A program made the translations under genes and the position numbers. The notes under the pieces were generated by a model. It searched no databases. It saw nothing but the letters and a program-made list of their open reading frames with translations, and was not told the origin of the DNA. DNA of 64,000 nt from Salipiger mucosus DSM 16094 (GTDB taxonomy: Bacteria; Pseudomonadota; Alphaproteobacteria; Rhodobacterales; Rhodobacteraceae): the NCBI RefSeq assembly GCF_000442255.1, contig NZ_KE557274.1, positions 611,311 through 675,310 of the forward strand, read 5' to 3'. Shown here in pieces: positions 497 to 61,791 of this stretch. The first letter of the stretch is position 1, and every line of letters begins with the position of its first letter.

Positions 497-1647
497 CACA
501 CATGACTGCCAATACCGAAACCGACCCCCGAGCCCTTGAACAGAAACCGGAAGATTTCGCGTCTCAGTGGCGCTTGATCTGGATCGCCTTCCGCAGGCAT
601 CGGCTGGCCATGACTGGCGCGATCATCGTACTGATGTTTTACCTCGTGGGTGCCTTTGCCGAAATCCTCGCTCCATTCGACCCGAACGAGAGTTCGTCGG
701 CAAACATCTACCACCCGCCGCAGATGGTTCGTTTCATCGACCACGACGCCGACGGCGGCTGGTCCTTTAGCCCGCACGTGATCGGGATGACGATGGAGCG
801 GGACAAGTTTACGCTCAAGACCACCTATACCGAGAACCCAGAGGATAAGATCTACCTCGACTTCTTCGGCAAGGGAGAGCCCTACAAGCTCTGGGGCCTC
901 ATCCCGATGGAGCGCCATTTCCTCACGACCGAGAACTCCGATGAGAGGTTCTTCCTCCTGGGCGCCGATCGCCTGGGGCGTGACATGCTCAGCCGGACGA
1001 TCTACGGAACCAGGGTCTCCATGTCCATCGGCCTGATCGGCGTGGGGCTCAGCCTGCTGCTGGGGCTGATCCTTGGCGGGGTCTCCGGCTACTACGGTGG
1101 CAAGGTCGACATGTTCATCCAGCGTATCGTCGAGCTGGTGATCTCGTTGCCGACGATTCCGATCTGGCTGGGCCTGAGCGCGGCACTGCCGCAGGACTGG
1201 TCTCCTCTGGCGCGATACTTCGCGATCACCATCATCCTGTCACTGGTGGCCTGGACTGAACTCGCCCGTGTCGTCCGTGGTAGGTTCCTGGCTCTGAGGA
1301 CCGAGGACTTCGTGACCGCGGCCCGGCTTGATGGCTGCAAGCGTGGCAGGGTGATCTTCCGGCACATGATGCCCTCGATGGTGAGCCACATCATCGCCTC
1401 GGTTACGCTGGCGATCCCCGTGATGATCATTGCCGAGACGTCGCTGTCGTTTCTCGGGCTCGGGCTGACGCCGCCGATCATCTCTTGGGGCGTGCTGCTG
1501 AAGGAGGCGCAGAACATCCGCTCTATCGCCCAGGCCCCCTGGCTTTTCGCACCCGGTGGCGCAGTCTGCCTTGCGGTGCTGGCTCTGAATTTCCTAGGCG
1601 ATGGTCTGCGTGACGCGGCCGACCCCTATGTGCAGGACAGTCACTGA
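493..1647 (+). CDS. ABC transporter permease, DppC/OppC type
   Basis: This second inner-membrane permease subunit has 384 residues, longer than the usual 280-300. One N-terminal membrane helix (about residues 36-60) is followed by a hydrophilic stretch of roughly 90 residues, probably periplasmic, before the five-helix transport domain. The EAA loop is visible near residues 272-300 (DFVTAARLDGCKRGRVIFRH). The GTG at 493 overlaps the upstream stop; an in-frame ATG at 502 is an alternative start. The gene overlaps the ATPase gene by one base, giving a tight permease-permease-ATPase operon. The long insert recurs in some OppC-like proteins of alphaproteobacteria, so it is probably not a fusion. 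Confidence 0.9.
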   Translation: MTHMTANTETDPRALEQKPEDFASQWRLIWIAFRRHRLAMTGAIIVLMFYLVGAFAEILAPFDPNESSSANIYHPPQMVRFIDHDADGGWSFSPHVIGMTMERDKFTLKTTYTENPEDKIYLDFFGKGEPYKLWGLIPMERHFLTTENSDERFFLLGADRLGRDMLSRTIYGTRVSMSIGLIGVGLSLLLGLILGGVSGYYGGKVDMFIQRIVELVISLPTIPIWLGLSAALPQDWSPLARYFAITIILSLVAWTELARVVRGRFLALRTEDFVTAARLDGCKRGRVIFRHMMPSMVSHIIASVTLAIPVMIIAETSLSFLGLGLTPPIISWGVLLKEAQNIRSIAQAPWLFAPGGAVCLAVLALNFLGDGLRDAADPYVQDSH

Positions 1648-3401
1648 TGGATGGTGAAACAATGACTTCCGAGTGGAACACGCCGGTTCTGGAACTCAAG
1701 AACCTAACGACCGAATTCGTGACCAAGCGCGGAGCCTTCCGCGCGGTTGATGACGTCTCGCTTGAACTTCACGCCGGCAAGACCCTGTGCGTCGTCGGTG
1801 AAAGCGGCTCTGGCAAGAGCGTGATGTCGCGTTCGATTCTGCAGATCGTCGATCCGCCGGGCCGGGTGGCCGGGGGGCAGGCGCTCCTGCACCGGCACCG
1901 CACTGCGCGTGCCGGTGCAGGGGAAGAGACTGTCGACCTGCTGAAACTCAACCCAAAGTCCAGGGCGATCCGCAGCCTGCGTGGGCGCGACGTCGCCATG
2001 ATCTTCCAGGAGCCGATGAGTTCCTTGTCACCGGTCCACCGGATCGGCGATCAGGTCGGCGAGGCGATCCGTCTGCACGAGCCGGTCTCGAAGAAGGACG
2101 CGCGCGAAAGGACGTTCGAGTTGCTGCGCAAGGTCGAGATCCCGAACCCGGGCAAGGCTATCGACCAGTTCCCTTTCGAGTTTTCGGGGGGCATGCGGCA
2201 ACGGGCGATGATCGCCATGGCGCTGGCCTGCAATCCCACGGTGCTCATCGCGGACGAACCGACGACGGCGCTTGACGTGACCATCCAGGCCGAGATCCTC
2301 GACCTGATCCGCTCGATCCAGGACGACAGCGACATGGCGGTCCTGTTCATCACGCACGACATGGGCGTGGTGGCGGAAATCGCGGACGAGATCGCGGTCA
2401 TGCGGTTCGGCAAGGTGGTCGAGACCGGTGATGTCTACGACATTTTCGAGAGACCTCAGCACTACTACACGCAACGCCTACTTAATTCAGTTCGCGAACT
2501 CGATCACCCGTCGGAACGGCGGCTTGCCATGCGCAAGGAACGTCCGGTGGGCGCGCCATGTTTGGTGTCGGACAACGTCCGCAAGGTGTTCGGTGGTAGC
2601 AAGAGTTGGTTCGGAACGGAGGTCGAAGGCCTGGTCGCCGTCAACGACGCTGAGCTCGAGCTTCGTTCTGGCGAGAACCTGGGCATCGTCGGCGAAAGCG
2701 GTTCGGGCAAGACCACGCTTGGACGCTGTCTGCAGCGCGTGCACGATGTCACTGCCGGGAGGATCCTCTACACCGACAGCTCCGGACTGGAGCGCGATCT
2801 CGCGCCGCTCACGGAAAACCAGCTGGAGCAACCTTGGCGCGACATTCGCACCGTGTTTCAGGACCCGTTCTCGTCGCTCAATCCGCGCATGACGATAGGC
2901 CAGATCATCGCCGAGCCGCTTGTCGTCGAAGGCAAGTTGACCGGCCCGCAGATCCGTGAACGAGTCTACGAGTTGCTCGAACTGGTGGGGCTTCCGGTGT
3001 CGGCATATATGCGCTATCCGCACGCTTTCTCGGGCGGCCAGCGTCAGCGTGTCTCCATCGCCCGTGCGATCGCGCCCAACCCGCGCATCATTATCGCGGA
3101 CGAGGCGACCTCGGCGCTGGATGTCAGCTTGCGGACGCAGATCCTCGACCTGCTACTGGATCTTCAGGAGCGGCTGGATCTGAGCTTCATCCTGATCAGC
3201 CACGACATCGCCGTCATCCGCTATTTCTGCGACCGCATCGCGGTCATGTATCGCGGCCGGATCGTCGAAACCGGCGATACCGAGACGGTTTGCAACACTC
3301 CACAGCACGAATACACCCAGTCCTTGCTTTCGGCCGTCCCGGTGGCGGATCCGCGGGCGCGCGGACAGAAGCAGCGTGTTCGTTACCGCGAAGCCATCTG
3401 A
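1647..3401 (+). CDS. ABC transporter ATP-binding protein, fused DppD-DppF type
   Basis: This 584-residue protein carries two complete nucleotide-binding domains and would energise the two upstream permeases. NBD1 has Walker A GESGSGKS (about residue 51), signature FSGGMRQR and Walker B LIADEPTTALD. NBD2 has Walker A GESGSGKT (about 350), signature FSGGQRQR and Walker B IIADEATSALD. Each half has the switch histidine (ITHD, ISHD) and is followed by the short region typical of peptide-type importers. The ATG at 1647 shares a base with the previous stop; a second in-frame ATG lies at 1662. Single-chain double ATPases are common in Rhodobacterales peptide and glycoside importers. Confidence 0.93.
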   Translation: MDGETMTSEWNTPVLELKNLTTEFVTKRGAFRAVDDVSLELHAGKTLCVVGESGSGKSVMSRSILQIVDPPGRVAGGQALLHRHRTARAGAGEETVDLLKLNPKSRAIRSLRGRDVAMIFQEPMSSLSPVHRIGDQVGEAIRLHEPVSKKDARERTFELLRKVEIPNPGKAIDQFPFEFSGGMRQRAMIAMALACNPTVLIADEPTTALDVTIQAEILDLIRSIQDDSDMAVLFITHDMGVVAEIADEIAVMRFGKVVETGDVYDIFERPQHYYTQRLLNSVRELDHPSERRLAMRKERPVGAPCLVSDNVRKVFGGSKSWFGTEVEGLVAVNDAELELRSGENLGIVGESGSGKTTLGRCLQRVHDVTAGRILYTDSSGLERDLAPLTENQLEQPWRDIRTVFQDPFSSLNPRMTIGQIIAEPLVVEGKLTGPQIRERVYELLELVGLPVSAYMRYPHAFSGGQRQRVSIARAIAPNPRIIIADEATSALDVSLRTQILDLLLDLQERLDLSFILISHDIAVIRYFCDRIAVMYRGRIVETGDTETVCNTPQHEYTQSLLSAVPVADPRARGQKQRVRYREAI

Positions 3402-3411
3402 GGTTCCTTTC

Positions 3412-4620
3412 ATGAAGATAACAGACATCAAGACCTTTCTGATGCAGGTCGGCTCGCGGCCGGGCATGCCGGCCGGGGCCGGTTCATTCCGCGGTTCGCG
3501 AAACTGGCTCTTCCTAAAGGTTGAAACCGACGAGGGCGTCTACGGCATTGGCGAATGCTCGGGGTGGCCAAGGGTCATCGAGCGGGCGGTGCAGGATCTT
3601 GCCTCCATCCTGATCGGTGAGGATCCGCGTGACATCGACCGGTTGTGGCACCGTCTCTATGTCGGGACGATGGGCCACGGCATTACCGGAACCGTCGGCG
3701 GCGGCGCCCTGACGGGCATCGAGATGGCGCTTTGGGACATCAAGGGCAAGGTGCTGGGCCAGCCCGTCTGGAACCTTCTGGGTGGCAAGTTCCGCGACAC
3801 GATCCCTGTCTACGGCCACGCGAAGTCGCCCGAGCGCGCGCGCGAGCTGATGGAGCGCGGCTACAGCGCGGTGAAGGTCGGTTTCACCGGCGGCGTGGAT
3901 CTCGATCTCGTGGCGGCGATCCGCGAGACGGTGGGTTCGGAGGCCGACGTGATGGTCGACGCGCACGGGCCGTCCTGGATGACCCCCGCCGACGCGATAG
4001 CGGTCGGGCGCGAACTGGAAAAACTGGACCTGCTTTTCTACGAGGACCCAGTTGCGCCGGAAAACCTCGACGCGCTGGAGAGGGTGCGCGATGCTGTAGA
4101 CATCCCACTAGCTGCGGGCGAACGTGTCAGCACGATCTGGGGCATCCGTCCTTATGTCGAACGCGACCTTGTGGACGTCATCCAACCCGACACCGGCCGG
4201 GCCGGGGGTTTAACCCAGATGCGCAAGATGGCGGCAATGGCCGAGTCCCATTACATCACGATGGCGCCGCACTCCGGTTCGCTTGGTCCCGTGGCAGAGT
4301 TTGCCGCGCTGCATGTCATGGCGACGATCCCGAATGTGCTGATGCTGGAACGGGTCGAGATCGATTGGCAGGGCCGCTACGAGGTTGTAACACCGGTGCT
4401 CAAGGCTGAGAATGGCGCCTTGCCGGTGCCGGATGCACCGGGTCTTGGCGTGGAACTGGTCGAAGAAGAAATCGAGAAGTACCCCAGCCAACGCAATGTG
4501 GCGGACATGCCGGACAACGAAAACGCCTATGAGCCGGGAACTTTTGGCGAATGCGTCTATTTTCAGCCCCGGCTGCGCCGGCGGTCTCGCCTGCGCCTGA
4601 AGCGGTCGGACGAGGCCTGA
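3412..4620 (+). CDS. Enolase-superfamily sugar-acid dehydratase (mandelate racemase/galactonate dehydratase type)
   Basis: This 402-residue cytoplasmic enzyme would abstract the alpha proton of a sugar acid and eliminate water to give a 2-keto-3-deoxy acid. The N-terminal capping domain (about 1-125) precedes a TIM barrel. Barrel residues visible in order are the lysine in AVKVGF, an Asp-x-His pair in MVDAHGPSW (metal ligand plus acid/base His, as in galactonate dehydratases), FYEDP, the third metal ligand in AAGERVS, and a late catalytic His in TMAPHSGS. The start follows the ATPase gene by 10 bases with an AGG about 8 bases upstream. The exact substrate (aldonate or aldarate) cannot be read from these motifs. 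Confidence 0.87.
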   Translation: MKITDIKTFLMQVGSRPGMPAGAGSFRGSRNWLFLKVETDEGVYGIGECSGWPRVIERAVQDLASILIGEDPRDIDRLWHRLYVGTMGHGITGTVGGGALTGIEMALWDIKGKVLGQPVWNLLGGKFRDTIPVYGHAKSPERARELMERGYSAVKVGFTGGVDLDLVAAIRETVGSEADVMVDAHGPSWMTPADAIAVGRELEKLDLLFYEDPVAPENLDALERVRDAVDIPLAAGERVSTIWGIRPYVERDLVDVIQPDTGRAGGLTQMRKMAAMAESHYITMAPHSGSLGPVAEFAALHVMATIPNVLMLERVEIDWQGRYEVVTPVLKAENGALPVPDAPGLGVELVEEEIEKYPSQRNVADMPDNENAYEPGTFGECVYFQPRLRRRSRLRLKRSDEA

Positions 4621-9806: not shown

Positions 9807-9890
9807 CTGGCAACCGATCAGAGGTGTCATGATGATCGAGCTGCAGGGCATGAAATCGCAGACACTACTTTAGTCGGGTTTGAATAACGC

Positions 9891-11252
9891 CTACGCGGCC
9901 ATTTCGCAGAGGCGCCCGCTGCCGTTGACCTTGCGATAGGGTCTTCCGGCGGCAGCGATCCAGACGAGAAGCAGGGCCCAAAGAAGCCTGAGCCGGGCCA
10001 GGATCTTGCGGATGTTGTGTCCGCAGCCGCAGAGTACGGCGAAGATCGCATCGCCTGTGGTGCCCTTGAGCGGGCATCGCGCCAGGCGGCCATCGGATTT
10101 CATGTGGCCGATCTCCGGCTCGATCGCGCTGCGCCGTACTCTGCGGCTGCGCCCACAGCCCTTGCGTCATGCCGCGGCGCATGCCCGAGATCAGCACTTG
10201 CGTGCCGCGGACCTCGTGACCGCGGTAGCCCCTGTCCACGACGGCGAGGTTGGGGCGCTGGTCGGTGAGCGTCTCGACCTGTTCCAGCGCCTCGGCCAGC
10301 GTGTGGCCGTCATATGAGTTGCCCGGCATGGCGCGCATGCCGACGACAAACCCGCCGTCGATGGTGGTGGCGACGCTGACCTTGCAGCCGAATTCGTAGC
10401 GCACCCGTGCCTTGCCCTTTGAGATGCAGTCGACCTCGGGCTCGTGCAGGGCGTAGATCTTCCCCTTGGATTTCTGCGCCTGGTACAGCAGCTTCGAGAC
10501 CCGCGCCAGCATCTCGGCCACGCCGTCGCGCACCGCACCTTCCGGGATGGCGTCGAGCTACCGGCAGATATCGCGCATGACACGGTCGGCGTACCCGCGC
10601 AGCGTTCTCAGCGCCTTGCGCATGCGCTTGAACTGGCGCGCATGGGCATAGCGCCCGATCTGTTGGGCCAACCGCGGCGCCTTGCGCGCATAGGTCTGAG
10701 CCAGATCGATGCCGAGATCCTTCGCAAGCGCGACCAGTTTCGCCCGTGCCTTCTCGAAGAGGCGTGCATCGGTCGGATGCGCGATGTTCTTCTCCATCAC
10801 CGTGGTGTCGACGGAGACGCGCGACAGGCGGTCGTCATCGACGACCCCGGCCGAGCGACCAGCCTCGATCGTTTTGGTCAGCAGCCATTCGGCGCCCTCT
10901 TCGCAGATCCGGTCCCGCCAGCGGCTGAGCGAGGAGGGATGGATGGGCGGTTGGTGCTGAAAGAACGTCTCACCGGTGAAATGCCGAAAGTACGGGTTCT
11001 CGATCCACCGCGCGACCACGGCCTCGTCCGACAGGCCGTAGGTGTGTTGGAGATACATGAGCCCGGCCACGAGTCGGGGATGCGTGGCGGCCGGCCAGCG
11101 GGTGCCGGAAAGAACCCTGCCCATTCCCGCTCGAACCACTCCCCGTCGATCAAGCCTGCCAGCTTCACCAACTCGTGCCGCATGTCGATCATGTCGACCA
11201 GCCGCGGTCGCAGCAGGTCATCCTGTTCCGGAGCGCGATCGCGGTGCTTCAT
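9891..11252 (-). pseudogene. IS5-family transposase, decayed
   Basis: Spliced across lesions, this reads as one DDE transposase: N-terminus MKHRDRAPEQDDLLRPRL at 11252, a frameshift near 11,100, then HPRLVAGLMYLQ onward with the first catalytic Asp in VSVDTTVMEK. An in-frame TAG at 10558-10560 interrupts it after MRDICR. It resumes with IYALHEPEVDCISKG and the second Asp in VVDRGYRG. A second frameshift near 10,165 precedes SDGRLARCPLKGTTG and CGCGHNIRKIL. Two frameshifts plus a stop make it non-functional. Only one base pair separates its start codon from the truncated ISNCY frame, so its own 5' end is missing. Confidence 0.85.
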
Positions 11253-12271
11253 GGCATGATCCGCTTGCGGTCGTAGGAAAAGGTGAGCTGGTGGCCGACA
11301 TAGCGCTTCTCGCGCCAGCACAGGATATCTGCGAGCCGGTCCGGCTCCACATTCAAGGCACGATGCAGGTTGTCCGGTCTCGCCGGGAGTTTGGCGAAGC
11401 GGGCGTTGTAGCGGTCCCTGAAGGCGTCCAGATAGGCGTTCGCGGCCTCCATGTCCGAGATGCCTGCCAGCCGTAATTCCTTCACCAGGCGATCCTGCAG
11501 TGTCCGGTTCGCCCGCTCAACGCGGCCCTTGGCCTGACTGCTGTTGGCACAGAGGATCTCGATGTTCAGCTCGTTCAGCGCGCGGCCAAACTGGGTCATT
11601 CTTGCGCCGCCCTTGGCATCGTCCTTGGCGACACGGAACACCGTATGCTTGTCGGAATAGAATGCCACGGGGCGGCCGTGCTTCAGCAGGTAGCTCTCGA
11701 GCGCCTCAAAGTAACTGAAGGTGCTCTCGGACTTCACAAACCGCAGTTCCATCAAGGTGCTGGTCGCATCGTCAATGAAGACGAGCAGGGTGCAGGGCGG
11801 GCCACGATCCTCGAACCATCGATGGTCCGAGCCATCGATCTGGATCAGTTCTCCAACGCATTCCCGGCGAACGCGCGGTTGATGAAACGTCCTGCGCTGC
11901 TTGCGCGACAACCAGAGGCCGTCCTCGACCATCCATTTGCGCAATGTCTCCCGGGAGATCTTCACTCCGTGATGCTCGGCCAACATCTCCGCCGCCAGGG
12001 TCGGACCGAAGTCCGAATAGTTATCCTTGACCAACGCCAGCGCATAATCACGCTTGGCTGGATGTATCCGATTGTTCGGTGTCTTGCCGCGCGCCCTGTG
12101 CCGGATCGACGCCGCGCCATCCGTTCGATAGCGCTTCAGCAGCCGGAACACCTGGCGCCTCGTCAGATCCAGTACATGGGCGCCGTTCTCAACGCTCAGC
12201 CGACCATCGTCGATCTGCGCCAGAACCTCGACACGCCGCAACTCGCGTTCGCTCATGATGACCCATCCCAT
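11249..12271 (-). pseudogene. ISNCY-type transposase, 3'-truncated
   Basis: This frame encodes 340 residues of an integrase-core transposase. It has a helix-turn-helix domain (about 15-60, LDLTRRQVFRLLKRYRTDG) and a DDE core with QIDGSDHRWFED, VFIDDATSTLMELRF and AKGRVERANRTLQDRLVKE. It stops at YDRKRIMP, where the related proteins I recall continue for about another hundred residues. The reading frame ends exactly where the IS5 remnant begins (the TGA overlaps the IS5 ATG as ATGCCATGA). A likely terminal sequence with GTGACA repeats lies upstream of the start at 12306-12343. The element is a truncated relic. Confidence 0.8.
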
Positions 12272-12430
12272 GTCCCATCCCTCGACCTGTCCTCACTGCA
12301 GGCGAGAGTGACACTTCTGCTTTGCTCACGGGTGACATTTTAGATGGGGTGGTTGCCGCCATCTCCCGACGGCATCGCAATATGCCAAGAATGCGCAGTG
12401 TAGAGACCACGCAAAAGAAGGACGGCAACC

Positions 12431-13453
12431 ATGGACGAAGGTACTATCATCGGAGTTGATCTGGCAAAGAACGTGTTTCAGCTCCACGGCGCGACCGCGG
12501 ACGGGTCGGTCATCTTCCGAAAGAAGCTCTCACGCCCGCAATTCCATCGGTTCATGGCCGGTCAGCCTGCATCTGTTGTCGTCATGGAGGCGTGCGGTGG
12601 CGCCCATTTTTGGGCGCGCGAACTGGAGGCTCTGGGGCACCAGGTCAAGCTGATTTCGCCACAATACGTGAAACCATTTGTGAAGAGGCAGAAGAATGAC
12701 GCCGCCGACGCTGAGGCGATTGTCGAGGCCGCGCTACGTCCATCGATGCGCTTCGTAGAACCGAAATCGGAGGTGCAACAGGCGAGTGCTGTTTTGTTTC
12801 GTTTCCGGGAGAAGCTGGTTAAACAGCGTACCGAGCTGATCAACGCCATCCGGTCCTATTTGTTCGAGTTCGGACATGTCATTCCAAAGGGACCCCGACA
12901 TCTGAGACGGGTGGCGGAGCTGATCTCGAATGACACGGGGACGCTGCCGGATGACGTTCGGGAAATCTGCGGCGACCTGCTGGACGAAATCAGGCGGAAG
13001 ACCGAACGGATTGATGAAGCACTGAAGCAGATCCATGCCAAGTCCCGGCAACAAGAAACGTTGCAGCAGCTACAAACGATGCCGGGGCTCGGGCCAATCA
13101 CGGCCGTCGCGATTGAAACCTTCGCACCGCCGATGGAGACGTTCCGGCGGGGACGGGACTTCGCCGCCTGGCTGGGGTTGGTTCCAAGGCAGAACTCGAC
13201 CGGCGGGAAACAGCGGTTGGGGCGCACATCGAAGATGGGGCAGCGCGATATCCGACGCCTTCTGATCATCGGCGCGATGTCAGTGGTGAACTGGGCCTCT
13301 CGAGGTCATGGTGTAACGACGGGGTGGTTGGCTTCCATGCTGGCCAGAAAGCCAAGAATGGTCGTCGCCGTTGCGTTGGCCAACAAGATGGCACGGGCCA
13401 TCTGGGCGATGTTGGTCAAGCGCGAAGCATATCGAGCGCCAGTGACGGCATGA
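12431..13453 (+). CDS. IS110/IS1111-family transposase (DEDD recombinase)
   Basis: This 340-residue intact recombinase has an N-terminal RuvC-like DEDD domain: Asp in IIGVDLAKNVFQLHG (about residue 10), Glu in VVMEACGGAHFW (about 53), and the two Asp of KNDAADAEAI (about 93-96). A coiled-coil linker follows. The C-terminal domain has the LQTMPGLGPITAVAIETFA hairpin and the serine-bearing GRTSKMGQRDIRRLL motif (about 265-280). Length and motif order match full-size IS110-family enzymes, so this copy should be active. It starts with ATG after a GGACGG stretch. It would cut and join DNA guided by the RNA encoded just downstream. Confidence 0.93.
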   Translation: MDEGTIIGVDLAKNVFQLHGATADGSVIFRKKLSRPQFHRFMAGQPASVVVMEACGGAHFWARELEALGHQVKLISPQYVKPFVKRQKNDAADAEAIVEAALRPSMRFVEPKSEVQQASAVLFRFREKLVKQRTELINAIRSYLFEFGHVIPKGPRHLRRVAELISNDTGTLPDDVREICGDLLDEIRRKTERIDEALKQIHAKSRQQETLQQLQTMPGLGPITAVAIETFAPPMETFRRGRDFAAWLGLVPRQNSTGGKQRLGRTSKMGQRDIRRLLIIGAMSVVNWASRGHGVTTGWLASMLARKPRMVVAVALANKMARAIWAMLVKREAYRAPVTA

Positions 13454-13499
13454 AACAGCGCCCTAACTGAGAAAGGTAGGCAAAAAGGAATGTGAGGAA

Positions 13500-13690
13500 G
13501 GCAATGCCCCATATGGGCACAATGATCGAACAGATCAGGGTCAGCGAAACCAGCGCAAAGTTAAGGACAAAGAAGTCCGGATTTTAGTTTTGGGGCTGAC
13601 CCGCGGATCTCCATATCGGCCAGCGGCGCTTGTAAGGCCGCACGAAAAGGCCTGACACAAGCTCGCACTCGATCACATGCTCAGAAAGGC
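13500..13690 (+). ncRNA. Candidate bridge RNA of the IS1111-group element
   Basis: The 3' non-coding region has two guide-bearing loops. Loop 1 is closed by an 8-bp stem, GGGTCAGC (13538-13545) with GCTGACCC (13595-13602), with an inner hairpin GGAC/GTCC. Its 5' side, CGCAAAG (13554-13560), is complementary to CTTTGCG in the right flank (13728-13734). Its 3' side, ATTTTAG (13581-13587), equals the left flank (12337-12343). Loop 2 surrounds a CGGCC/GGCCG hairpin (13617-13640). Its 5' side CTCCAT pairs (one G-U) with ATGGGG at the left element end. Its 3' side ACACAAGCT (13655-13663) equals the right end (13721-13729). Transcript ends are approximate. Confidence 0.65.
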
Positions 13691-13736
13691 AATGTTCTCC
13701 TTGCATGGGAGGCGGCAACCACACAAGCTTTGCGGT

Positions 13737-14846
13737 GTGGACTCACGCCGAAGCGCAACGTCTGACACTTGACGCTATTCCGGCCGGTTCCTGATCTCCA
13801 GTAGACGGCTCTCGAAGACCTCGGCGGGGGTGCGGTAGCCGAGGCATTTCCTCGGCGTGGCGTTCAGTTTCCGGCAGATGGTCCTCAGCCGCTGCTGGGT
13901 CAGCGATATCGGATCGGTCGAGCGGGGCAGGTGTCGCCGAAGTCGGTTGTTGGTGTTCTCGACGGTGCCTTTCTGCCATGGTGCCTGCGGATCGCAGAAC
14001 CAGCTGTCGGTGCCCATGCCGTCCTTCAGTCGAGGCCAGGCCGAGAACTCCGTGCCGCGGTCGAAGGTGATCGAACGCCGGGCATCGGCTGGTAGTTTGG
14101 ACAACCCGCCGATGAGCGCCTCCATGATCGGTTTCGACTGGCGGTCCTCGTTGCGCAATACTACCGTGAACCGGCTGACGCGCTCGACCAAGGAAGTCAC
14201 ATTGACCTTGCCGTTTTCCTTGCGGAACATTAGCAAGTCGCACTCCCAATGACCAAACTCGGCACGGTCCGCCACCTCTGCAGGTCGATTGCGCAGGCTC
14301 TGGGCATCGAAGATATGCCCGCGGTGATGCCGTCTCTGGCCGCGCGGTCGGCGACGTCTACGATGCTCGGGCAGGTGGCGGTGGAACTGCTCGGCGCGGC
14401 CTTCCTTTGAGTAGGCGAAGCGGTAAATCGTTTCATGGCTAACTCGGATCGGATGGCGTTCCAGCCGCATCCGGCCAGCGATCTGCTCCGGTGACCACCC
14501 ATTCTTCAGAGCATCTTCCACGGCAGCCTTGATCTCAGGATTGCGGATCAGCTTGCGATGCACCGCGCGCCGCTCTTCGTAGATCTTCTGGGCGACGAGG
14601 GCATGATAGCCATTCAGCTCCGGCATCTCCTCGTCTTCAAAGACATTCCTGCGCAGTTCGCGATAGATCGTGGAGGGCGCACGACCCAGCCGATCCGCGA
14701 TTTCCGGAACCGGCATCTTTGCTTCGCGCCACTTCGCGAGCTTCCGGCGTTCCTCGAAAGTCAGGTGGGGGTAGCAGCGGCCCATTCACATCCTCCATGC
14801 ATGCTTCTAATTTCATACAGACTTTGCACTTCGTTTGTGAATCCAC
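13737..14846 (-). mobile_element. IS30-family insertion sequence
   Basis: Imperfect terminal inverted repeats of about 28 bp bracket the transposase gene. Read inward, the left end (13737-13764) contains CGAAGCGCAACGTCTG and the right end (14846-14818, minus strand) contains CGAAGTGCAAAGTCTG, with outer GTGGACTCAC and GTGGATTCAC also matching. No clear target duplication is visible, and the left end abuts the IS1111 element, so the exact left edge could be a few bases off. The transposase is intact. Confidence 0.75.
13775..14785 (-). CDS. IS30-family transposase
   Basis: This 336-residue transposase has the IS30 N-terminal helix-turn-helix (LTFEERRKLAKWREAKMPVP and LGRAPSTIYREL), a second HTH-like region around GWSPEQIAGRMR, and a DDE catalytic core. 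The core has Asp in FGHWECDLLMF (about 177), Asp in ITFDRGTEFSA (about 239) and Glu in APWQKGTVENTNNRLRR (about 275). The length is normal and no lesion is seen, so it is predicted functional. It is transcribed toward the IS1111 element. Confidence 0.93.
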   Translation of the reverse strand: MGRCYPHLTFEERRKLAKWREAKMPVPEIADRLGRAPSTIYRELRRNVFEDEEMPELNGYHALVAQKIYEERRAVHRKLIRNPEIKAAVEDALKNGWSPEQIAGRMRLERHPIRVSHETIYRFAYSKEGRAEQFHRHLPEHRRRRRPRGQRRHHRGHIFDAQSLRNRPAEVADRAEFGHWECDLLMFRKENGKVNVTSLVERVSRFTVVLRNEDRQSKPIMEALIGGLSKLPADARRSITFDRGTEFSAWPRLKDGMGTDSWFCDPQAPWQKGTVENTNNRLRRHLPRSTDPISLTQQRLRTICRKLNATPRKCLGYRTPAEVFESRLLEIRNRPE

Positions 14847-61707: not shown

Positions 61708-61791
61708 CAGAAGCTTGAAGCGCCCTTTGGCGCATCATCTTCAACCTCCCTGTTGGACTTCGGCCGAGCTTTGTGCTCGGCCTTTTTTTTT
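61708..61791 (+). ncRNA. Candidate small regulatory RNA with anti-Shine-Dalgarno stretch
   Basis: Between lysR and the methyltransferase lies a compact RNA-like unit with no open frame. Hairpin GCGCC/GGCGC (61720-61733) sits inside a longer TTGAAG/CTTCAA stem (61715-61744). Then comes AACCTCCCT (61743-61751), complementary to Shine-Dalgarno sequences and open in a CAAC/GTTG loop. A strong terminator ends it: GGCCGAGC/GCTCGGCC with 9 T's (61762-61791). A -35/-10 pair at 61674-61701 would start transcription near 61708, giving an RNA of about 84 nt. This resembles trans-acting, Hfq-dependent sRNAs; no homologue could be looked up. Confidence 0.55.
61762..61791 (+). terminator. Intrinsic terminator of the small RNA
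   Basis: GGCCGAGC and GCTCGGCC form a perfect 8-bp stem with the 5-base loop TTTGT, followed directly by nine T's. This is the clearest Rho-independent terminator in the window together with the one at 43.3 kb. Confidence 0.9.

Follow-up and report, generated by a model that had tools for sequence, protein, structure and literature searches.

Seek RNAs, guide RNAs that direct transposition, have been described for IS1111 elements such as ISEc11, ISKpn4, ISPa11 and ISPst6, and the cited sections of PMC11187229 describe IS1111 elements as extending 7 bp beyond the left repeat and 3 bp beyond the right one. In the IS110 group, the bridge RNA of IS621 provides a second, closely related system (Durrant et al. 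2024, PMC11208160). The sections of that paper drawn on here place the donor guides of many IS1111 members in a multiloop and predict RNA reading of IS1111 ends from the inspection of six elements of both groups.

Here, we analyzed a 64,000-nucleotide stretch of Salipiger mucosus DSM 16094 (contig NZ_KE557274.1), hereafter the window, whose positions are used throughout. It contains an element that, as far as the cited sections describe the seekRNA elements (PMC11187229), shares with them a noncoding region that follows the transposase gene, extensions of 7/3 bp beyond the subterminal repeats, a DEDD transposase of about 340 aa, a top-strand complement located 5′ of the bottom-strand match, and the absence of a target duplication. 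With the IS621 bridge RNA, again on the cited sections (PMC11208160), its RNA shares two loops, one for the target and one for the donor, and the inclusion of the core in the pairings; the donor guides occupy a multiloop, as in many IS1111 members.

We are highly confident that the element is an insertion sequence of the IS1111 group, with a noncoding region downstream of its transposase gene that would encode a bispecific guide RNA (seekRNA or bridge RNA). A preliminary description made from the letters of the window had proposed this reading, which a flank scan, permutations, donor co-change and a covarying fold now support. Sequence comparison demonstrated the anatomy of the element, the fold of its putative RNA, the co-change of guides with targets and with donor ends, and the empty sites. 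Among the titles listed by searches confined to the open-access literature, none was on the window element.

Anatomy and boundaries of the element

The DEDD transposase (340 aa, 12431-13453, + strand) matches PF01548 (DEDD_Tnp_IS110, E = 1.4e-16) and PF02371 (Transposase_20, E = 7.1e-22). Its length lies within the range of about 330-350 aa of the IS1111 group, and the sequence GLVPRQNSTG, compared by eye, fits the C-terminal GL-P----S(T)G motif of that group. Downstream of the gene, 272 bp (13454-13725) are noncoding, as in the IS1111 group, and the subterminal repeats, at 12 bp, fall within the usual 11-13 bp. We place the element in the IS1111 group from its sequence. The element and its junctions comprise the following features:

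12342-13725, + strand: IS1111-group insertion sequence, 1384 bp, delimited by the 7-bp left/3-bp right extension rule, the shared AG core and empty-site comparison
12337-12341, + strand: left half of the target, ATTTT, in the flank; same as the 3′ target guide at 13581-13585
12342-12343, + strand: left copy of the core dinucleotide AG; 82 of 94 elements have the same core on left and right, against 42 expected under independence
12344-12349, + strand: right donor half ATGGGG, the left element end; pairs with the donor 5′ guide at 13609-13614 with one U-G wobble
12349-12360, + strand: left subterminal inverted repeat GTGGTTGCCGCC, perfect over 12 bp
13711-13722, + strand: right subterminal inverted repeat GGCGGCAACCAC, perfect over 12 bp
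13721-13725, + strand: left donor half ACACA, the right element end
13726-13727, + strand: right copy of the core dinucleotide AG, shared by both junctions
13728-13734, + strand: right half of the target, CTTTGCG, in the flank; complement of the 5′ target guide

The ends were placed by the IS1111 7/3-bp extension rule, which gives AGATGGG as the left extension and ACA as the right one; this placement is consistent with the shared AG core and with the empty sites. The junctions then read ...CATTTT / AG ATGGGG ... CCACACA / AG CTTTGCGG..., with AG at both. The preliminary description had noted differing dinucleotides at the two ends, AT and CT, as something that needed explaining. Because it had set the ends two bases too far to the right, AT (12344-12345) and CT (13728-13729) are in fact the bases that follow the core, and the puzzle vanishes when the IS1111 rule is used to set the ends. 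A target-site duplication is absent: the flanks, once joined, give a gap-free alignment to plasmid P4 of Sulfitobacter mediterraneus over the junction, with two base differences in the guide zone (TTATCG for TTTTAG), and only the AG core is common to both ends. The host genome contains a single copy of the element; the evidence for its own target preference is thus one insertion together with the rule learned from relatives, which weighs against the guide reading.

Fold and distribution of the guide RNA

Relatives were gathered from whole genomes and named genome contigs. A transposase match was present at 167 loci, 60 of which were dropped (short match, no repeat, truncated or cut flank, or no TGG anchor), and the 107 loci kept, with both ends, gave 94 unique elements. 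The first alignment held 79 of the 94, with transposase identity of at least 58%, and 61 of them have distinct targets; the RNA sub-alignment held 58 of the 61, and a covariance model (R1) was built from 30. The putative RNA, with two of its helices and its four guides, is arranged as follows:

13521-13679, + strand: bridge RNA / seekRNA, conserved folded region, predicted by model R1, fold z and covariation
13523-13528, + strand: 5′ strand of the closing helix, partner 13670-13675; 95.4% of cells paired, 4 of 6 pairs changed on both sides
13538-13545, + strand: 5′ strand of the target-stem helix, partner 13595-13602; 93.0% of cells paired, 6 of 8 pairs changed on both sides
13554-13560, + strand: 5′ target guide CGCAAAG, complement of the right flank, with pairing that runs on through the core towards 13563
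13581-13587, + strand: 3′ target guide ATTTTAG (left half plus core), identical to the left flank
13609-13614, + strand: donor 5′ guide CTCCAT, pairing with the left element end ATGGGG
13655-13661, + strand: donor 3′ guide ACACAAG (left donor half plus core), identical to the right end

Across the 61 relatives, the structure comprises 34 pairs in seven helices, with 95.1% of cells paired and two-sided changes at 18 pairs, and none of 500 shuffles attained any of the five measures used. When the helix partners were slid by 1-3 columns, pairing fell to 45.1% or less, a control biased in favor of the counted structure, which had been drawn up from consensus folds of the same sequences; RNAalifold recovered six of the seven helices from the same alignment. 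The window RNA (13512-13682) gave a fold z of -5.0 against shuffles. The helices covary. The target guides lie in the internal loop of one stem and the donor guides in the multiloop that separates the donor hairpin from the closing helix; both loops, at which the preliminary description had proposed to look for conserved structure, are part of the conserved, covarying fold.

With R1 the window RNA scored 161.5 bits, the best of ten sources scored, the window being itself among the 30 training sequences. Searched with the covariance model, the host genome gave four such RNAs, of which one scored weakly; of 20 genomes of the genus, the host among them, 15 contained a match. The host also holds a second IS1111 relative (G000:C9:186024-187101; loci L003, L005 and L284), internally deleted, which has kept both ends and a bridge RNA (146.7 bits) together with only parts of the transposase, and is possibly a non-autonomous element. 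In Rfam 15, no family reached its gathering score over the element, the best weak match having 23.6 bits against a gathering score of 80. Gathering matches within the window were limited to tRNA and SorX, both outside the element; the SorX match (singlet oxygen resistance RNA) lies at 61721-61788 on the + strand, with 52.3 bits.

Co-change of guides with targets and donor ends

The four guide strings read in the preliminary description were all found where it had placed them, the fourth, ACACAAGCT, spanning 13655-13663. CGCAAAG is the reverse complement of CTTTGCG in the right flank (13728-13734), and ATTTTAG is the same as 12337-12343 in the left flank, both as claimed. The proposed polarity also holds in both loops, with the 5′ guide complementary to the right half and the 3′ guide identical to the left half plus core.

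In a scan, every flank position was compared with every RNA column among the 61 relatives with distinct targets, the guide positions of the earlier reading being left unused. The left flank, from -5 to the first core base, was identical to RNA 13581-13586 (z 9.6-11.0), and the right flank from +1 to +6 was complementary to RNA 13555-13560 (z 5.4-7.7), which reproduces the target-loop positions first read minus the first base of CGCAAAG. Position by position, the 5′ target guide matched in 48-59 of the 61 at +1 to +6 and in only 22 at +7. In relatives this guide reaches further than first described, with pairing that crosses the core in the direction of 13563: the two RNA bases that come next complement the core in 47 and 39 of 61 elements, and RNA 13563 complements flank -1 in 41 of 60. 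A few one-off registers also scored, reflecting alignment shifts. The first core base correlated, in addition, with RNA columns given no role (z 4-5.5); this counts against the guide reading and indicates that shared ancestry inflates the core signal.

A guide search with loose spacing gave weaker separation, the search itself raising the null to 10.5 of 15, and was followed by fixed-register and loop-bounded tests; even so, none of 93 swapped flanks equaled the score of the window. In the fixed register, own flanks gave 500 matches and permuted flanks 194 ± 13, with a maximum of 251 in 20,000 permutations, while 24 of the 61 relatives matched at three or fewer of 7 positions in the 5′ guide, a count that weighs against the guides and to which alignment shifts contribute. 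With small shifts allowed in the loop region, own flanks reached 699 against 406 ± 10 for permuted ones (maximum 451 of 20,000). Copies inserted at targets unrelated to their own first loop were what the preliminary description had expected if it were wrong; instead, 55 of 61 scored at least 10 of 13 in the loop-bounded test, and six scored 8 or 9. Compared with its own flanks, the window loop scored 13 of 13, and none of 60 swapped flanks brought it above 9, so that its target matches are indeed unlikely by chance. Two poor fits at 8 of 13 (L122 and L084) count against the reading, as do two pairs of relatives with identical loops and sites differing in the right half (L186/L187 and L174/L175).

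A multi-copy relative in three genomes of the same genus (G012, G017 and G019), with a transposase 52% identical to that of the window and loci oriented with blastn, carries the guide AATGTCC. Of its 12 distinct right flanks, 10 have GGACATT after the right core and two differ from it at one position. These flanks are only partly independent, since six of the 12 continue in one shared palindrome-like repeat and two (L271 and L273) share 14 bases; the remaining flanks differ past the guide match. Also in G017, two loci (L294 and L295) hold an IS1111 relative interrupted by a 3.8-kb segment (about 1328-5175 of L294), which lies in opposite orientations in the two and contains three overlapping reading frames resembling a tyrosine-recombinase trio. 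All nine fetched G017 copies of the interrupted element (L264-L272) have one common break point, and the disrupted element therefore seems to have spread.

On the donor side, the nine-base match of ACACAAGCT to the right end is literally true, its last two bases lying in the target flank; what relatives have in common is a match of 7 nt, ACACA plus the core AG, instead of the 9 claimed. This guide agrees with the right end and core at all 7 positions in 55 of 61 relatives, at 6 in five and at 4 in one. At the variable right-end positions -2 and -4, all 94 elements have the same base as at RNA 13658 and 13656, respectively, and by parsimony these positions changed 6 and 9 times along the transposase tree. 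The claimed pairing of CTCCAT with the left end stood in part: it pairs with ATGGGG, with one U-G wobble, and the conserved part is only CCAT with ATGG. This arm is nearly invariant, RNA 13611 being complementary to left-end position 4 in 90 of 94 elements, and some rare variants at position 4 of the right donor half are compensated in the guide. A left end ATGC occurs with a GCAT guide in L200, L034 and L202, perhaps one lineage, and an ATGA end with a TCAT guide in L021; L122, L157 and L197 are misfits.

The same dinucleotide stands in the left copy, the right copy, the target loop and the donor loop in 70 of 79 elements (53 AG, 14 TG and 3 CG). Unlike core dinucleotides on the left and right, found in 12 of 94 relatives, count against a shared core; in five of the 94 the combination is TG on the left and CG on the right, a pattern consistent with the left core deriving from the target and the right core from the donor. 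Within one IS1111 clade, natural co-change is seen for all four guide arms, most weakly for the donor 5′ arm, and the donor-loop co-change across 94 natural elements is evidence that IS1111 elements read their own ends by RNA.

Target site, alternative readings and known systems

The target site of the window element is ATTTTAGCTTTGCG, at the end of an ISNCY-family element into which the copy was inserted and whose gene lies in the left flank:

11249-12271, - strand: ISNCY-family transposase belonging to the element targeted at its end; 84% identity over 339 aa to an annotated ISNCY transposase of Sulfitobacter mediterraneus

This frame has 340 aa against 447 aa in Sulfitobacter, and the homology ends after residue 339. 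The empty site that the preliminary description suggested seeking in relatives was found in other genomes: the predicted site CATTTTAGCTTTGC is read exactly in 10 of the 30 other copies of the ISNCY flank examined (29 fetched among the matches listed, plus Sulfitobacter), and none of the 30 is interrupted at the insertion point. An exact-match search of the host genome returned no free site TTTTAGCTTTGC. This 12-mer is present in 83 of 394 genomes and says little alone, because its reversed control is also present in many of the genomes scanned; its placement at ISNCY ends is informative. A plasmid megablast with the element gave two partial matches, both helpful for the flank. The surroundings (9827-14785) form a run of transposase-like genes, ISNCY and IS1111 included, with overlapping transposase-like frames at 9865-11139 (judged by eye) and, at 13775-14785, an HTH_38/rve transposase considered IS30-like because of where its annotated counterpart lies in Sulfitobacter.

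The nearest sequence at the window junction is a Leisingera plasmid locus (L041, 3001-4260), whose left junction and left end are as in the window, within a diverged ISNCY end, and whose right end is different. It was dropped as a second guided insertion, the RNA match being weak (53.8 bits) and the loop, by eye, mismatched to the site. It looks like a decayed hybrid, and a nearest neighbor whose own loop has no match to the site counts against the guide reading. A Rhizobium altiplani relative (L129, locus 1154-4490; transposase 64% identical) carries guides for GCAAAGT-AG-AAATGTC, the same kind of ISNCY end repeat as the window target in the opposite orientation, and a neighboring frame there is 77% identical to the window ISNCY transposase. 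With different guides and the same kind of 17-bp repeat, the two could be a case of convergent targeting, in which RNA-guided IS1111 elements would repeatedly be programmed against competing transposon ends and the guide RNA would serve as a weapon between mobile elements; we consider this joint reading doubtful. A clade-wide habit of targeting insertion-sequence ends was unsupported, transposases being a minority among the 113 flanking frames of 61 elements (the largest counts, among 25 of 84 families listed, were 5 of 113 each for PF01548 and PF00665).

Guide matches of 5-7 nt per arm are short, and a single case could be luck, so the matches might be chance similarities in a noncoding tail, with the site chosen by protein-DNA recognition alone. 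Own flanks nevertheless exceeded permuted ones in every one of the 20,000 permutations and the window loop beat all 60 swaps; moreover, flank positions +1 and -1 changed 43 and 35 times on the transposase tree with the guides still fitting their own flanks. Chance is thus an extremely remote explanation. It is also improbable, if less so, that the target loop alone is a guide while the transposase recognizes the ends through the subterminal repeats, the donor-loop similarity coming from shared descent. Such a view draws on the near invariance of the donor CCAT and the ATGG end, and on Siddiquee 2024 (PMC11187229), which in its cited sections describes target guides and calls the end-binding domain not known. 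It is at odds with the 94 of 94 agreement at right-end positions -2 and -4 through repeated changes, with the core alike in all four places and with the ATGC/GCAT and ATGA/TCAT co-changes, even if the three ATGC elements are one lineage.

Compatible with the anatomy proposed here is a decayed copy, in which the RNA and ends would record a past guided insertion and the copy would now be immobile. The single copy and the lack of an exact free TTTTAGCTTTGC in its own genome speak for this, whereas the intact transposase frame (340 aa), the perfect 12-bp repeats and an RNA score that leads the ten sources speak against it; we regard decay as a possibility to be taken seriously, though not the likelier one.

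Under the bispecific guide RNA reading, the target loop would pair with both target strands: the 5′ guide would bind the top strand to the right of the core and continue through the core, and the 3′ guide would bind the bottom strand across the core and to its left. In the multiloop, the donor loop would read the joined element ends likewise, with the 5′ guide on the left end and the 3′ guide on the right end plus core. The transposase would hold the guide RNA and act on a circular intermediate, recombining donor ACACA-AG-ATGGGG with target ATTTT-AG-CTTTGCG at the shared AG, without target duplication. For transcription, RNA binding, circle formation and catalysis, this scheme follows published work on relatives.

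Raw sequence allows the full IS1111 guide code, consisting of two target arms, two donor arms and the core, to be deciphered, with natural relatives as a check, and the 94 bounded elements supply guide-target pairs for choosing programmable recombinases. Going by the title of a 2003 work by Partridge and Hall, IS4321 and IS5075 are IS1111 members that reportedly insert into the terminal repeats of another transposon. Their target is a Tn21-family end, whereas that of the window element is the end of an ISNCY-family element.

Compared with the IS1111 seekRNA elements of PMC11187229, as presented in the cited sections, the window element has a different target, an ISNCY-element end, and different guides. 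Those sections describe target guides only, whereas in the window element the donor loop could also be read, backed by co-change. According to the cited sections of PMC11208160, the RNA of IS110-group elements falls mostly within the left end, in contrast to the window element, in which it would lie downstream of the transposase. The mechanism is probably that of the known seekRNA and bridge RNA elements, to which this locus adds a corrected boundary and core, a target at an ISNCY end, and natural co-change of all four guide arms.
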